This document shows positions 39,738-48,599 of a DNA stretch of 64,000 bases, in pieces. The first letter of the stretch is position 1. Each line of letters starts with the position of its first letter. This stretch comes from an uncultured Candidatus Altimarinota bacterium (GTDB lineage: Bacteria > Patescibacteriota > Gracilibacteria > BD1-5 > UBA6164). Below the pieces are notes generated by a model. That model was not told where the DNA came from. It did no database searches and saw only the letters and a program-made list of their open reading frames with translations. Location: the NCBI GenBank assembly GCA_937944145.1, contig CALDZK010000001.1, forward strand, positions 124,001 to 188,000, given 5' to 3'. A program made the translations under genes and the position numbers.

Positions 39738-41363
39738 TTACGTTATCTTCCCATCTCTTGGATATTCAAAATCCAGATCTATAATCGTCAGTCCTTTTTG
39801 TTTCAGACTCTCCTCTAGTGCTCATTTAAAATCTCATTTTTTTTCTACCTTCACTCCCCTAGCACCAAAACTCTCAGCGAGTTTTACAAAGTCGGGATTT
39901 CCAAAATCAAGTCCATAGTCTCCAAAACCTGCATCTTCTTGCTTCCATTTTATCATTCCATAGTTACTGTTGTTGAGAACCACAATAACCATATCAAGCT
40001 TCATACGAACTATGGTTTCTATATCTCATAAATTCATCACAAATCATCCATCACCAGTAACACACACAACATTTTGCTCTGGATGAAGTCTCTTTGCTTC
40101 CATAGCAGATGCGTATCCTGCACCCATAGTTGCAAGCGCATTATCAAGCAAAATAGTATTTGGGGCACGAGCAGGGTAATTACGAGCAAGCCATACTTTA
40201 TAGAGCCCATTATCAAGAGTAAGTATATCTTTATCATCGAGAACTTCCCTGAGGTCTTTTGCGAGCCTGCGAGGCATCATGTATGGGAAATCATCTTCAA
40301 GCGAGAGACTATCTGCTATTTTTTTATGATTTTCTACATTGATTTTGTATATCTTACTAAAGTCCCAGTTGCTCGTATTTATCTCTGACTGGCAAAGTTC
40401 CCAAAACACATTTCCTATATCTCCTATAACATCCATATATGGACTATAAACATAATCAAAATGAGATTTCATAAAGTTTACGTTTATCACTGGAATTCCA
40501 TTGATACCAAGCATTTCTGTTGGTTTCTCTGCGTTATCATAGCCAACTGAGATAATGAGATCCGAATGTGCAAGTGCGTCATGGATATAATCCCCTGATG
40601 TCAAAGCAGCTGTTCCGAGATAATTTTCTTGTCTCCCTTCTACCACTCATTTTCCCATCTGAGAGGTAAAATATGGAATATTATACTTTTCTATAAACTC
40701 TGTAAGATATCTTGTAATACGCTTTCTATTGGCTCCAGCTCCTATTAAAATGACTGGAGATTTTGCTTTTTCCAGCTCCGTTACCAAAAGAGGGATCGTT
40801 TTATAGTCAACTACTGGACGACGAATAGTTTGAGTTTTTAGATCTACGATAGAGTATTTTTCTGGTACTTCCTCTGCTGCTATATCTTCTGCAAGTTCTA
40901 TATGAACAGCTCCTGGTTTTTCTTCCTCTGCTATACGAAAAGCATTTTCGAGAATATAAGGAATACGCTCCCCCGATGGAATATCTGTTGCGTACTTAGT
41001 AATTGGTTTCATCATCCCAACTACATCTATGATTTGAAATGCTCATTGTTTAGAGTGATTTTGAGGTTTTTGTCCGGTGATAACCATCAGTGGCATCCCA
41101 CCGAGTTGTGCGTAGGCTACTCCTGTCATCATGTTGGTTGCACCAGGTCCAAGAGTCGCTATCGCGACACCAGTTTTTCCAGTAAATCTCCCATATGTCG
41201 CTGCCATAAACACGGCTGTTTGCTCATTACGAGTCAAAACAAGTTTGATTTTCGAATGAGAGAGTGACTCAAGTATATCAAGATTTTCTTCTCCAGGAAC
41301 ACCATAGATTGTGTCTACTCATTTGCTCTCAAGAATCTTTACAAATAAATCAGAAGCTTTCAT
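39738..41363 (-). CDS. Thiamine-pyrophosphate enzyme, acetolactate synthase large subunit type
   Basis: 541 residues. MKASDLFVKILESKGVDTIYG and VPGEENLDILE form the PYR domain with the catalytic Glu region; LGPGATNMMTGVAYAQLGG and GAVHIELAEDIA follow; the T-motif GDGGFVMNLGDIETIVRMKL with LNNSNYGMIKWKQ binds TPP-Mg (third Gly of GDGG from UGA). Closest in pattern to AlsS-type acetolactate synthases, which condense two pyruvates. No regulatory subunit or later branched-chain genes are nearby. Confidence 0.88.
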
Positions 41364-41449: not shown

Positions 41450-42154
41450 TTAGTTATAATTCTTGTTATACCCCACCTTCTGCTCATATACCTTATTCAT
41501 TTTTTTATGATCTTTCCCTAAAAGAAAACAAATCTTTAAGTATTGATTTAAAAGTCATTGTTTGAGTATACCTCGTTTTTGAAATCTACGGGCTGAAGTC
41601 ACGATTTTTTCAGAGATTATTTTTGGTTTCCCAAACTGCAGCATATTGTAAGAAAAAATAGTATCCTCAAATATATCATCTTCACCAAAAAGAGATGTCT
41701 TTTCTAGCTCCAAACGTCTGGCAAATATACAGTGATCCAGATACAAGATACCTCTACGACCACGAACAAAGTTCGAATACCAAGAAGTAAATCTCAGTAT
41801 AAAATTATCCAGGTCAAAACTATGCAGGTGTCCTCACCATGTAGCTCCCGCTCTTACAGCACTATCTATTGCTTTGAAACTATTTTTTGGAAGGAGAGCA
41901 ACACTATGATGAAATAATACAATATCTCATGATGATTTTGAGAACCCATAATTGAGCCTCTGAGCTCTATTTGAATCTGGAAGTTGAAATACATAAGGAG
42001 TATAGTTACGACACAATTCTACTGTTCCATCCGTACTTTTGTTATCAACGACTATTATCTCATACCCTCACTCTTGCAGTACAATAGCCTCAAAGATCTT
42101 TTCAAGATAGTGATTACGAATTTCATTGTTGGTCGAGAGAATTACTGATATCAT
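41450..42154 (-). CDS. Family 2 glycosyltransferase, TIGR04283 (arsenosugar cluster) type
   Basis: 234 residues. MISVILSTNNEIRNHYLEK start, EIIVVDNKSTDGTVE, the FHHS segment, RRGILYLDHCIFARR, EDDIFEDTIFSYNML and the C-terminal IVTSARRFQKRGILKQGLLN stretch match the TIGR04283 pattern (TSxRRWxxxGxxRTxLxN). Expected to move a sugar onto the product of the radical SAM enzyme. Fourth and last gene of the cluster beginning at 44779. Confidence 0.75.
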
Positions 42155-42160
42155 ATATCC

Positions 42161-42925
42161 TTAATCAAATCTATAAACAAATCCCTCAAAGCTATAATCA
42201 TTATTTTTCTTACTGAGGGATTCTATTATTTTTTGAAATACTTCCCTAGATTTTGCTATATTTTCTCCAAGTTCTTCCATAGAAGTATTTGTTTCCATAA
42301 CACCATTTGCATAATCTACGGCAAAACAAACCTGAGCAATAGGGATCTCGAGTTCATTTGCCAAAATAATCTCTGGGCCACAGGTCTGACTCACGAGATC
42401 TCAACCGCAATTTCTATACATACGGATCTCTCATTTTGAATTAAAACGAGGTCATACAGCATACGCGTAACAAGCAGTATCTATAACCGAAGAACCAAGT
42501 ATATCTTGTATATCTGACATGATTTGCGAGTTATAAAAACTCCCTGCTATGAGATGTCCTCTCCCTGGTTTTCAAGCAGTATCAAAAAAACTACATATCT
42601 CTCCATTTGGGAGTCTATTTTCCAAAAAAAGCAGATCATCCACCAAGTATGGTTCTGCGAGTTTGTAGTCAGTATTGAGAACTCCTGCAACTGAAAAAGA
42701 AACTATTTTTGTAACTCCAACATTTTTGAGTGCTTGGATACAAGCTTTATAGTTTATATGATGTGGGAGGTACTCGTGGTTTTTTCCGTGTCGTGGGAGT
42801 ATCGCTACAGGAGTAGCGTGTATATCTCAAAGCAAAAGAGTGACTTCTCCAAAGTCAGTTATTATTTTTTTTTCCTCGAGTCCAGGATAATCATAAAATG
42901 AGGTTCCTACTATAAATCCAAACAT
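42161..42925 (-). CDS. Methylthioadenosine/purine nucleoside phosphorylase family protein
   Basis: 254 residues. AILPRHGKNHEYLPHHINYKA is the MTAP/PNP phosphate and base-binding signature; GPRFNSKGEIRMYRNCGGDLV and the SQTCGPEIILANELEIP segment are also typical. Cleaves a purine nucleoside such as methylthioadenosine or deoxyadenosine. PNP-like genes are recurrent partners of ArsS, where a 5'-deoxyadenosyl donor is used. Confidence 0.85.
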
Positions 42926-42949
42926 AGTAAAAAAGTTATAATATAAATA

Positions 42950-43936
42950 CTAAGTAATCGCTCCACCACAACTCGTACCAGCTCACGCAGTACAACCAAA
43001 ACAATAATCTCGCACCATAATGTTTTTAATAACATCTAGACTCCCTGCGTTTAAAATATCTTTGAGTGTAAGAGTTTTTCCATCCTTCCCTATAGCTGGG
43101 ACAGACTCTACTTGATTAAAGTCACAATCGTAGATATTTCCATTATAATCTACCGATAAAAACGTACGGCACATCAGAGAATCGAGAGTAGAATGGTTAT
43201 AATTATCAGCCAAAAAATCTATGTATGGATCATAGAGATTTTTGACTTTGAGGTATTTTTTAAACCTTCCACATGGTATATTTGCAAAGGCAAAGAGGTT
43301 GTGAAACTCTATACCAAAATTTTTTCTGAGAAATTTTTTGTAATCATCCTGGAGTTTCATCTGATTAGGAGCGAGAGAAAACTCATCTACGGTATTTGGA
43401 ATTTGTGTGTTATACACGAGGTTCAAAACGAGATTATCTTGTTTTCCATATCAGAGCTCATTGAGTTTCTGAAGCGCTGTTATAGATCCTTCAAATACTC
43501 AATCTCCTCTCATAGAATCTACATTGTCTTGTGTATAACATGGTAAACTCGCTGTTACTTCCAGACCATGTTCACGGAAAAATTCTGGATAATCAGTATA
43601 TCCATCCTCAAGAAGTACTACCAAGTTTGAACGAACAATTACACGTTTTCATTTTTTTCTAGCAGCGAGAGCTATTTCTTTAAATCCATTATTCATCTCA
43701 GGAGCTCATCCAGTCAGATCGACAGTTTGTATCTGATCAAACCTCTCAATAATCTCAAGTATGTCTTCTAAAGCTCCCGTGTTTAATTCCTCAGTTCTAT
43801 GTGGCCCTGCGTCAACATGACAATGAGTACAAGTAATATTGCATATCTTTCCAAGCTGAATTTGCAATGTATCTATACTACGTTTCTCTAATAGCTTTCC
43901 TTGTAGCTTCTTTAAAAATTTTAAATTGGTTTCCAC
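42950..43936 (-). CDS. arsS: Radical SAM protein of the ArsS (arsenosugar biosynthesis) family
   Basis: 328 residues. IQLGKICNITCTHCHVDAGP binds the [4Fe-4S] cluster through Cys32, Cys36 and Cys39. Further family marks: TVDLTGGAPEMN, TASLPCYTQDNVDSMRG, LVYNTQIPN, DYKKFLRKNFGIEFHNL, LMCRTFLSVDYNGNIYDCDF and the C-terminal CFGCTAGAGTSCGG. These match ArsS closely. ArsS builds the 5'-deoxyadenosyl-arsenic intermediate of arsenosugars. No arsM methyltransferase is seen, so the substrate may not be arsenic. The Gly of LTGGAPEM is UGA. Confidence 0.88.
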
Positions 43937-43945
43937 TCTTGTGTA

Positions 43946-44779
43946 CTAAATAAGTATTGTTTGTTGTTGTATCTTTTGTCCTTGTTGTTTGGTTTCTATC
44001 TCTGGCAGTATATCACAGTTATCCCAAAGTCCAGTAGAAAACGTCTCTATATACTCTGGAGAAAGATGGAACTCTATCATCTTACATGCAGTAGTACTTG
44101 CATCATACAAAAATGATTTTTGTTGCACTTCTATAGTCTCATCAGTTTTTGGAATCAAAAGCACATACCACCCTCTGAGTGTTCCATCATTTGCGGGCAT
44201 ACCGATAACTCACGTATTGATCCACGTATGATCTCAAGACGACTGTATAAATGGTATCCCACTATGTCATCCGATGATAATATCAGCTCTGGTAGCATCA
44301 AATTCTCCTTGTTTTATATCCCATGGAGTAGAGTAAAAAACAAACTGAGAAACATCACTATAACTCCCATGGACAAGTACTATATTCTTTCATTGCATCT
44401 CAAAAGATATGTTTCTGGCAATAGTAGAAAAATACTCTTTTGAGTCGTGAGACAACTCCTCTCTGGCATAATTATACCAAATAGAAGAGAGCCTGTCACA
44501 CTTACTCCCTGACTCAAAACCACAGCCACAATTATCCTGATCTGCGATGATTTGTTCTTCTGTATTCCCAAGAATCATACGCACCCCCCAGTCTTTCAAA
44601 AACTGTACTGTCTGTTCTGGTTGTCCACAATAGGCAACACTATCTCCAGTACAAAAGGTATGGTCTGGATCTATTCCTAGCTCTATAGATATATCTCTGA
44701 GTTTTTGAGTCGCTTGCAAGTTACTATAGGGTCATCAAAACACAAGAACTGGATGATTCAATTTTCAAAGATGCTTCAT
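43946..44779 (-). CDS. Calcineurin-like metallophosphoesterase of the ArsS cluster
   Basis: 277 residues. FGGPYSNLQATQKLRD, TFCTGDSVAYCGQPEQTV (metal-binding GD), ILGNTEEQI (GN[H/E]), CGCGFESGSKCDRLSS, VHGSYSDVSQFVF and GHSGIPF give the metal site set. The whole pattern, including GMPANDGTLRGWYVL, is that of metallophosphoesterases often encoded beside arsS. First gene of the four-gene unit, ending 9 bases before arsS. Confidence 0.85.
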
Positions 44780-44851
44780 GAGGTCAAAAAAGATCTATGA
44801 TAAAATACATGCTCAATTATATAGAAGATAAAAATCAAACAAGCAAAAGTT

Positions 44852-45946
44852 CTATTGAAATGATTCTATGTATTCTTCGTATCCTTCTTCTTGTAATTTA
44901 TCTACTGGGATAAACCTAAGTGCTGCAGAGTTGATACAGTGACGAAGTCCTCAAAACTCTTTTGGTCCATCTGGAAATATGTGCCCCAGATGAGCATCTG
45001 AAGAAGCAGATCTAGCTTCTATGCGGGGTATAAAAAGTTTGTTATCTCTGTGTTCTGTTACTACACCTTGATCTATAGTCTTTGTAAAACTCGGCCATCC
45101 TGTCTTTGAATCAAACTTATCAAGTGAACTATATAGAGGAGTTCCATCAACAACATCTACATAAATTCAAGCTTTTGTATTGTTCCAATATTCATTTTGA
45201 AAAGGTGGTTCTGTCCCCTCTTGTTGAGTTACATAATATTGAATGGGAGTAAGACGTTCTCTCAGTGAATCATCACCATACACACTTTCTGTCACTTCAG
45301 CTATACGCTCTTTCCAATTCTCCTCTATAAATCATTTTCTCCCACTGAGACGAGCATAGGTCTTGTATCTTGTAGGAGATTTTTTATAATAGTCTTGATG
45401 ATACTGTTCAGCTATATAAAAAGGAGTGAGTGGGATGATTTTTGTAGCAATAGCTGATGTAAATTTTCCTGAGTCTTCGAGAGATTTTTTTGATGCTTCT
45501 GCGATCTGTTTTTCTTCAGATCCATCATAATAAATAGCTGTTGTATACTGAAATCCTCTATCAGCAAACTGTCATCCTGGATCTGTGGGATCTATCTGTG
45601 TCCAAAACAATTCGACTAGAGTCTCATAGTCTATAACTTTCGGGTTATAAATAACCTGTACTCACTCTCTATGTAGAGTATCTGGTGCTGAACTTCCAGC
45701 ATATGTTGCTGTTTCCTCAGGTCATCCTATATACCCGACTATTGATTCTACTACTCCGTCTTGTGATTCAAATATTCCTTCCATACACCAAAAACACCCT
45801 CCAGCAAAATACGCAGACTGGGTCGGCCCTGTAAAAACAGGTTTTTGTAAGTCGTTATTTGGTCTCTGATCTCCAAAAACCATAGAAACTACGACTATCA
45901 GTAGTACTACGATCCCTGCTACTGAGATATCTTTTAATCCACGCAT
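44852..45946 (-). CDS. msrAB: Membrane-anchored bifunctional methionine sulfoxide reductase A/B
   Basis: 364 residues. An N-terminal membrane segment (8-24), then MsrA with [17 protein letters not shown] (Cys51 nucleophile), then MsrB with [23 protein letters not shown] and [13 protein letters not shown] (nucleophile Cys). Repairs S- and R-methionine sulfoxides, here facing outward. Electrons probably come from the thioredoxin-fold lipoprotein and DipZ-like protein encoded upstream. Confidence 0.94.
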
Positions 45947-45971
45947 TTCTATCTGTAATGAAATAAATATT

Positions 45972-46575
45972 TTACTGCACTATATACTCTTCACTTAAAA
46001 GTTCCTTAACTGATTGTTCTTTTTCTTCATATGCTCATTCTCAAAAATGCGTATAGCGAATATTTCCAGACTTATCTATCAAATACCATGCTGGCCAATA
46101 CCTATTATTGTAATCCCTCCATGTTGTAAAGTTGTTGTCCTGTACAACGGGGAAGCTTAGATCATATTGTTTTACAGCATTTGCTACGTTTTTTATATCT
46201 CTTTCATAGGAAAATTCTGGAGCATGAATACCAATAACTTTAAAGCCCTGATCTTTGTATTTTTTGTATAGTGCCTCTGTTTCATCTAGTGTACGTATAC
46301 AATTGATACAGCTAAATGTCCAAAATTTTACAGCAACTACTTCTCACCTTAACTCTTCTAAAGAAGTAATAGGATCAGTATTGAGCCAGTTTTCAAGACC
46401 AGCAAAATCTGGTGCTCTATATCAAGTTGGAGCTACTACAGACCCCCTCTCTGGTTTAAGTATGTCTTTAGGATTCAAAAATCAAAAGAGACTCTTAGAA
46501 ACATCTTCACATTTTCCATCTTCACACTGGTATCTTTGTCAATCAGTCGTGTTACGAATCTCTAGTTTTTTTTTT
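45972..46575 (-). CDS. C-terminal redoxin half of a DipZ-like protein, in a shifted frame
   Basis: No start codon begins this frame; it opens after a TAA upstream of an A10 run. It reads LEIRNTTDGQRYQCEDG, LRGEVVAVKFWTFSCINC (redox CxxC), PVVQDNNFTTWRDYNNRYWP and IRYTHFGEGAYEEKEQ, the AhpC/TSA-like domain of DipZ and NHL-redoxin proteins. It should be fused to the CcdA half; adding one A to the run joins the two. See the slippage site entry. If slippage does not happen it is dead. Confidence 0.65.
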
Positions 46576-47317
46576 CTTCTATCTTATCAAGTTCGAGATT
46601 ATCTATAATACTTTGCTCAAAATTTGTAGTATTGAGAAAACCAGCATCCAAGATAGCTGCTTCTATCTTTTTGTCATATCCAGATATGATAGCAATACCT
46701 ACAAAAATAAATATAACTCAAAGGATCTTTTTGAATATACCATTTGGATCACTTGCCCACTTGAGATTCTTGACAAGTTTTTGTCCAAATATAGCAATCG
46801 CAAGGAGTATAGCAGCAAGTCAAAGAATATAGGCAATAAGAGAAGTTATCCCTATCAAAAATCCTGCTGGGAGAATAATAGCAAGTATAAGAGCATATGT
46901 AGGACTACAGCTACTAAAAACTGGTCCAAGAGCAAAACCCATAAGTACATACTTCAGTGTTCCATTTTTTGATGAGCTCTTATTTAGGAGCTTATTAGAG
47001 TTATCTGAAAATCCGAGCTTTGTAGAGAGGTTTTTCCACAGGTTTGGAAAAAGTGTAATAATCCCCAGACCTATAATCAATCATCCTGAAAAACTCTTCC
47101 AAAAAGTCGGAGATACTCCGATCAAAACAGTAGAGGCTTTGAGAAGAAGTGAGAAAATCAAAATAGATACACTCAAAGAAGCTATAATAATATAGGGAGT
47201 GTATTTGTTTTTATCATCTTCTACACTCGCTCCGAGTATAATAGGAAGTATCGGAAGCACACAAGGTGCAAGAACCGTAAGTACTCCAGAAAGAAAAGCA
47301 ATAATTAAAAGCGTCAT
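46562..47317 (-). CDS. CcdA-like disulfide transporter (N-terminal half of DipZ-like protein)
   Basis: 251 residues as read, with about six membrane segments. Redox cysteines appear in VLAPCVLPILP (Cys19) and GPVFSSCSPTYALIL, as in CcdA/DsbD. Passes reducing power from cytoplasmic thioredoxin across the membrane. The reading ends KKKN-TAG just after the A10 run. In DipZ the CcdA part continues into a redoxin domain, which here lies downstream in another frame. The start ATG at 47315-47317 is the first residue of the first helix. Confidence 0.85.
46566..46575 (-). promoter_or_regulatory. A10 homopolymer, candidate transcriptional slippage site
   Basis: Ten consecutive A on the coding strand at the CcdA-redoxin junction. 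A10 gives the stop; A11 (or A8) restores one frame through both domains. Confidence 0.55.
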
Positions 47318-47351
47318 AATAACAATCTAAAAAATAAAATCATCTCTCACT

Positions 47352-47380
47352 CGTCATCGTAAGAGTTTCTCACGATGACG
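47352..47380. terminator. Hairpin after the triple-thioredoxin gene
   Basis: Nine-bp perfect stem CGTCATCGT/ACGATGACG with an 11-base loop; no strong T-tract, so it may be an mRNA-processing or stability hairpin. Confidence 0.5.
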
Positions 47381-47393
47381 TAAACAAATGAGT

Positions 47394-48599
47394 TTAGAGT
47401 TTCTCAGTAATCGATTCAAGAGTGTTTCCACCAGCCCACTTTGTAAGCAGATTTCCATCACTATCAACACTTACGAGTGTATGCTGAGATACAACTCCGT
47501 ATTTTTTTCTGAGTTCTAAGTCTGTATCAAAATCAGCCTTTAAAATAGTAAGTCCCTCAGGTATATTTGCAGCCTTGAGTTGAGACTCAAGGGCCTTACA
47601 GCTTGCACACCACTCAGCGTGGAAAAATACAACTGTATTTTTCGCGTCACCTACAAGTGACTCATCATAATCTACAAATGAACCCGCAAGTTCTGTAGTT
47701 GTCTCAACTATTTTTTCTTCTGCCTGTACTTCCTGAGTCGGAGCGCTTGCAGTTGGTTGTGGTTTAGATTTTCCACCCTTATGTTCCCCGAGACTCTCTA
47801 TAATATCATCTACTGTGAGAGATCCTTGCCACATACCGAGTTTGTTCATTTTCTTATCTACTTCTACGAAAGTATGTTTTGTAACAACCCCAAATTGTTT
47901 TTTAAGCTCTGTTTGTGTGTCATAATCTAGCTGAAATACACTCAGTCATGGAGGAACTCCTGACTCTTCGAGATTTGCTTCTGTAGTTTTACAGGTTCCA
48001 CACCATTCAGCGTGAAAAAATAAAACTCTTCTTCATTGTCCAGCTTTTACTGCTGCTGCTACATCTTCTCCAGTAGAGATTTTTTCATATACTCATTGAG
48101 TATCTGTAACATCTGTCACTGCTGTAACACCGAGTTCTCCTTGGATATCTTCTACTGACTTTCCTCAGATCCATTTCTTGATCATATTTCCCTCATTATC
48201 TACTTGCACAAAAGTATGTTGTGCTACGACTCCATATTTTTTTCTAAGTTCAAAATTGCTATCATAGTCTACACTCAAAAGTGTAAGATTGTCTGGTATT
48301 GTTGATTGTCATAATGTCTCATCAAGAGCGTTACAACTCGGACACCATGCAGCGTTAAAGAACAACACTACATCATCTGATCCACTTGCTATAGCTTCTG
48401 GAGTATACTCTTGGTATACTGCAGATATAGGAGTTACTAACTCTGTATCGAGAGCAACTATATCTTCTTGCAAGGACTCTTCTTGTACTTCTGGGAGGTT
48501 AGCAACAGGAGTTTCTACTACCTGAGCTACTTCACTTTTACCACATGATATAAGAAAAATTGGAAGAACAAACAATGCAAAAATTAGCTTTTTACTCAT
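47394..48599 (-). CDS. Lipoprotein with three thioredoxin-like domains
   Basis: 401 residues. Lipoprotein signal with lipobox LISC (Cys19). Three thioredoxin domains with motifs AAWCPSC (Cys86/89), AEWCGTC (Cys200/203) and AEWCASC (about Cys331/334), each followed by a KKYGVVxQHTxVxVD cis-Pro-less strand in which the usual cis-proline is replaced by His-Thr. Tethered outside the membrane, it probably relays electrons from the CcdA protein to MsrAB or surface proteins. Confidence 0.9.

Follow-up and report, generated by a model that had tools for sequence, protein, structure and literature searches.

What does a CPR bacterium do with an arsS gene when its near-complete genome encodes no recognisable ArsM, the arsenite methyltransferase? 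We addressed this question in a window of 64,000 bases, the whole stretch of DNA analysed here, which corresponds to bases 124001-188000 of the 204-kb contig C1 in a 1.18-Mb assembly (18 contigs, 98% complete). The open reading frames of the window are long under translation table 25, in which UGA encodes glycine, and broken under table 11; this code usage is that of Gracilibacteria and Absconditabacteria. Four co-directional frames run on the minus strand from 44779 to 41450, separated 5' to 3' by 9, 24, and 6 bases, and form one operon, bearing out the contiguity described in the initial annotation. In transcriptional order, preceded by the upstream gap and with lengths under table 25, the features are as follows.

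44780..44851, minus strand: gap upstream of the operon, 72 bases
43946..44779, minus strand: Car1-like metallophosphoesterase homologue, first gene of the operon, 277 aa (Metallophos_2, CxC alignment, context of plasmid homologues)
42950..43936, minus strand: ArsS, radical SAM DDMAA-synthase family, 328 aa, GTG start (TIGR04167, alignment, tree)
42161..42925, minus strand: MTAP-like purine nucleoside phosphorylase, 254 aa (TIGR01694, 142 bits; PF01048)
41450..42154, minus strand: family-2 glycosyltransferase, TIGR04283-like, 234 aa (TIGR04283, 134.5 bits)

Promoter and terminator scans of the 72-base gap stayed at chance level, and an Rfam search of the 39-50 kb portion of the window gave no match. 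UGA is read as glycine 7, 5, 5, and 4 times in the four genes, in operon order, and four of these codons in arsS fall on invariant glycines of the family. The operon is thus a long resident of this genome, and we rejected bin contamination on the same grounds, together with the position of the genes within a 204-kb contig.

The radical SAM protein matches TIGR04167 over profile positions 2-303 of 303 with 392.8 bits (E = 1e-117; curated cut-off 300 bits), and the next-best NCBIfam radical SAM model reaches only 44 bits. A viperin-like reading was tried and rejected, the matches being weak (27.9 bits). The protein has Radical_SAM and DUF3641 domains; the CxxxCxxC [4Fe-4S] site (C32, C36, and C39) and the ending YCFGCTAGAGTSCGG, two features named in the initial annotation, are both present. 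Cysteines C312, C315, and C323, in a cysteine-rich motif near the C terminus, are invariant among 15 ArsS, as part of a pattern in which every position invariant across these aligned proteins is kept. Compared with the cyanobacterial ArsM-ArsS pathway, in which ArsS is the DDMAA synthase, the operon protein is a close counterpart (~53-57% identical), yet one encoded in a genome without ArsM. In a tree of 44 sequences, including three from CPR, the latter (from the operon genome, from G235, a UGA-recoded member of the same family, and from G036, a member of the same class using the standard code) form one clade (support 98/81), sister to the main cyanobacterial clade of 29 sequences (96/95). 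A branch of length 1.14 (100/100) parts this assemblage from proteobacterial, bacteroidete, verrucomicrobial, and planctomycete ArsS as well as from a second cyanobacterial type. No clade of a different substrate takes in the operon protein, in keeping with its initial assignment. The topology agrees with one acquisition by the cyanobacterial lineage, or an exchange with it, and fixes neither direction nor root.

ArsS is rare in CPR: within the class, 3 of 288 genomes have it, and across the phylum this genome alone does (1/380); in one cyanobacterial order it is found in 189 of 196 genomes. Both arsS and the phosphoesterase homologue are absent from the one other genome of the genus and from most genomes of the family, and viral contigs yielded two partial ArsS fragments and no relative of the phosphoesterase. 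G235 keeps arsS alone; ~5 kb away it encodes an ArsR-type regulator and a low-molecular-weight protein resembling ArsC, whose score does not reach the ArsC cut-off (L021, 14461-15331). In a cyanobacterial endosymbiont of a diatom, arsS is retained in an obligate-endosymbiont genome of 3.1 Mb (L014, 5989-6984), where ArsM was found neither near arsS nor with one cyanobacterial ArsM query.

The methyltransferase, first reported missing from the neighbourhood, is missing from the genome as a whole: a search with the NF008823 profile returned no match. As a check of sensitivity, five different ArsM proteins encoded in arsS clusters are all detected by this profile (E ≤ 5e-35), and each of 14 control genomes gives at least a weak match. 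A cyanobacterial ArsM protein used as query found nothing in three CPR genomes, and nothing either in one other genome searched, so that this result has little weight alone. As for transport, acr3 is likewise absent from the whole genome by profile search, and the initial claim that no arsenic transporter is visible stands to that extent; it has to be qualified by two permeases of the ArsB/NhaD superfamily detected with PF02040 on other contigs. Their identity as ArsB was rejected, the MamN model fitting better and the scores lying far below every curated ArsB cut-off. Since neither a methyltransferase nor a definite arsenic transporter could be recognised, the source of a methylated substrate is hypothetical. 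Elsewhere, 13 of 20 cyanobacterial regions and 4 of 5 loci of Verrucomicrobia and Planctomycetes have ArsM within ~10 kb of arsS, which ties the ArsS family to methylarsenic. The remaining 7 of the 20 cyanobacterial regions, and some plasmids, have no arsM adjacent to arsS, so such an absence is not in itself exotic. What is unexpected is that a near-complete genome should have arsS and yet no ArsM that can be recognised.

The main addition to the earlier reading concerns the first gene of the operon, its Car1 lineage, its CxC pair, and its lost metal site 1. The predicted protein matches Metallophos_2 with 33.7 bits, above gathering, and no specific NCBIfam family. Although an associated metallophosphoesterase is present as described, it is not a generic accessory: sequence comparison assigns it to the ars-operon phosphoesterase lineage that includes the arsenate reductase Car1, with a degenerate metal site. 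Of five Car1-type plasmid homologues whose gene context we viewed, from Mucilaginibacter, Paraclostridium, Rubrobacter, Adhaeribacter, and Hymenobacter, every one belongs to an ars operon, next to arsR and acr3, arsM or arsC. PMC12124457 describes a gene of this type as ~40% identical to Car1, the arsenate reductase of Rufibacter tibetensis, and its Cys74 and Cys76 as essential for As(V) reduction. In our alignment the CxC pair C84/C86 falls on C74/C76, the CGC cysteines of the Paraclostridium homologue. Following the established metal-ligand scheme of the phosphoesterase superfamily, the ligands of site 2 are kept (D46, N72, H137, and H172), whereas the three that serve site 1 only are lost, motif I having changed from DxH to GxY (G16 and Y18) and GHxH to GHxG (G174). 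The homologue resembles the Car1-type arsenate reductases of ars operons (Rufibacter and Paraclostridium) in its CxC pair and site-2 ligands, but differs from them in lacking the site-1 ligands and in having a radical SAM gene as partner rather than arsR/acr3.

Two distant relatives share the exact pattern, with site-1 ligands lost and CxC kept, and both are encoded beside radical SAM genes. A loss common to two distant homologues that keep the cysteines points to an old subfamily trait: redox cysteines were kept, half of the metal site is gone, and radical SAM genes are neighbours. One member, on plasmid p546-1 of Roseomonas haemaphysalidis (L025, 1432-6834), sits in the cluster of an unassigned radical SAM pathway, together with a TIGR04282 glycosyltransferase, DUF547, a phosphonate-type ABC transporter, and two radical SAM genes, of which one is Rv1681/ArsS-like. 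In an Acidobacteria MAG (L016, 5956-7711), an Rv1681-like radical SAM gene is followed directly by a gene of the same subfamily (GGxYSN, CNCG, and HTG). We infer that the operon protein is a putative reductase working with radical SAM pathways. Reduction of DMAs(V) to DMAs(III) by such an enzyme would fit a pathway without ArsM. The predicted structures of this protein and of the phosphorylase (pLDDT 42 and 37, respectively) were too low in confidence for use.

The labels first given to the other two genes are correct as to the best-matching models, TIGR01694 (MTAP) for the phosphorylase and TIGR04283 for the glycosyltransferase, and too firm as to family membership, the scores of 142 and 134.5 bits lying below the respective cut-offs of 274.85 and 182. 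Aligned with human MTAP, the phosphorylase keeps T18, R60, H61, T197, and D220 (here T8, R45, H46, T181, and D204) and changes M196 to Q180 and D222 to A206. Residues T18, R60, H61, T197, D220, and D222 of the human enzyme are its contacts with phosphate and the 6-aminopurine; the phosphate- and main purine-binding residues thus appear to be retained, with ribose and purine contacts predicted to be altered. The same changes occur in the MTAP-like homologue of G036, which is 46% identical and overlaps arsS by 4 bases. The genome also encodes a separate MTA/SAH nucleosidase, which leaves the operon enzyme free from the recycling of SAM by-products and makes a housekeeping MTAP unlikely. In the glycosyltransferase, the motif that reads HAD in three homologues and HDD in a fourth is HHS, lacking its acidic residue; the ED pair (E163 and D164) is intact, as are other invariant residues. 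Glycosyltransferase activity is possible on this evidence and is not to be assumed. Scoring below their cut-offs and with changed active-site residues, both enzymes may have a different substrate.

The genes next to the operon on its upstream side, at 44852-48599 of the window, make up a thiol-redox module.

44852..45946, minus strand: MsrA-MsrB fusion
45972-46478: TlpA-like protein
46562-47317: DsbD_TM/CcdA protein
47394-48599: lipoprotein with three thioredoxin domains

Plasmids of Acinetobacter and Burkholderia (L023 and L030) likewise have CcdA and thioredoxin genes close to arsS. Downstream, an 86-base gap separates the operon from an acetolactate-synthase-like TPP enzyme (39738-41363; PRK08322, 694.8 bits), which has no convincing homologue in the incomplete genome of a genus-mate (G001). 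On contig C6 of the same genome (L002, 340-1773), another radical SAM gene adjoins one for a small Gly/Ser/Cys-rich protein with a (GS)n-repeat end (CGSGGCGCG), possibly a peptide-modification system.

An association with arsenic clusters elsewhere is seen for all four gene types, and the operon shows a trait of arsenosugar clusters in that genes for a nucleoside-cleaving enzyme and a glycosyltransferase adjoin arsS. Close parallels are found in Proteobacteria, in Cupriavidus KK10 and on plasmids of Burkholderia glumae and Acinetobacter portensis, where MTAP and/or a TIGR04283-family glycosyltransferase accompany arsS. In the B. glumae plasmid the MTAP gene directly precedes the TIGR04283 gene, as in the operon, and in Cupriavidus MTAP, TIGR04282, ArsM, and ArsS stand together. 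These clusters add TIGR04282, DUF547, TVP38/FAD oxidoreductases, and often ArsM, whereas the operon consists of four genes only; their MTAP, moreover, reads GMT/TDYDCW where the operon protein reads SQT/DYANG. None of the 20 cyanobacterial regions examined combines a phosphorylase, a glycosyltransferase, and a Car1-like gene beside arsS. A further likeness, in logic, is with the hopanoid pair HpnH/HpnG: HpnH is a radical SAM enzyme that adds 5'-deoxyadenosyl to the hopanoid, and HpnG, of the phosphorylase family, then removes adenine. However, HpnH belongs to another radical SAM family, and it is MTAP rather than HpnG that the phosphorylase of the operon matches.

From these comparisons we suggest, with a probability of roughly 60%, that the operon encodes a putative arsenosugar-type pathway starting from methylated arsenic that the cell does not make; this is the best supported of the readings considered. 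Weighing against it are the hypothetical origin of the substrate, the low scores and residue changes of phosphorylase and glycosyltransferase, and the lack of arsS and the phosphoesterase gene in the genus-mate and most of the family. Its substrate, the order of its chemical steps, and the source of methylarsenic are inferred here as follows. Dimethylarsenic, or another methylarsenical, would enter from the environment or a host. Through its CxC pair, the Car1-like protein would maintain arsenic in the trivalent form or convert it to that form (or reduce arsenate), rather than act as a two-metal phosphatase. ArsS would then combine the 5'-deoxyadenosyl radical of SAM with As(III), to yield 5'-deoxy-5'-dimethylarsinoyl-adenosine (DDMAA) or a closely related compound, an adenosylation of the kind published for arsenosugar biosynthesis (cited in PMC12159101). 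The MTAP-like enzyme, for which adenine removal from DDMAA would be the natural role, would split off adenine by phosphorolysis, and the glycosyltransferase would act on the freed arsenic-ribose unit. The end product would be an organoarsenic sugar, either of lower toxicity or with a structural role.

The absence of arsM and acr3 would also suit an operon in which the adenosyl group goes not to methylarsenic but to some other acceptor, such as a compound of selenium, sulfur, or carbon. Phosphorylase and glycosyltransferase would then be fitted to the resulting product, in analogy to HpnH/HpnG. Active-site positions of these two enzymes indeed differ from those of their arsenic-cluster relatives, and the nearest phosphoesterase relatives adjoin radical SAM proteins other than ArsS. 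Nonetheless, we regard this as unlikely: an ArsS that has all the family-invariant residues and groups with cyanobacterial ArsS argues for the familiar substrate, as does a phosphoesterase lineage tied to arsenic operons with its CxC pair kept.

Some of the same residue changes could instead reflect decay, the operon being the remnant of an imported arsenosugar cluster in which ArsS survives while the accessory genes lose function. The aspartate missing from the HAD motif, the vanished metal site 1, the solitary arsS of G235, and the patchy distribution all agree with such a history. Yet under code 25 none of the four frames is broken and their spacing is tight, the metal-site loss is common to two distant homologues with the same CxC, and the changes in the phosphorylase recur in G036, so that we consider decay improbable. 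We give still less credence to simple relief of arsenic stress with no sugar pathway, in which the MTAP-like enzyme would salvage 5'-deoxyadenosine or MTA and merely share the operon, and the phosphoesterase homologue would simply reduce arsenate for detoxification. Detoxification is the role of Car1-type reductases, and the MTAP family acts on 5'-modified adenosines, both as this explanation would have it; but the genome has its separate MTA/SAH nucleosidase, reduction of As(V) without Acr3 would leave As(III) inside the cell, and MTAP genes stand within the arsenosugar clusters of Cupriavidus and Burkholderia.

The arsenosugar-type pathway can be taken further, as a tentative extension that we would not call probable, to a streamlined form of arsenic scavenging: a redox-only Car1 relative without site 1 would supply ArsS with DMAs(III) by reducing dimethylarsenate taken up from outside, an ultra-small host-dependent bacterium would build arsenic ribosides from the methylarsenic of another organism, and further radical SAM pathways, as at the Roseomonas and Acidobacteria loci, would draw on this phosphoesterase subfamily too. 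The four-gene set is small and contiguous, and can be tested in the laboratory once UGA is recoded. If the arsenosugar reading is true, it would supply candidate enzymes for adenine removal from DDMAA and for the supply of trivalent methylarsenic, steps for which a limited literature search found no assigned gene. Arsenic methylation and arsenosugar assembly would then be split between two organisms, and a host-dependent CPR bacterium would be a participant in the organic arsenic cycle.
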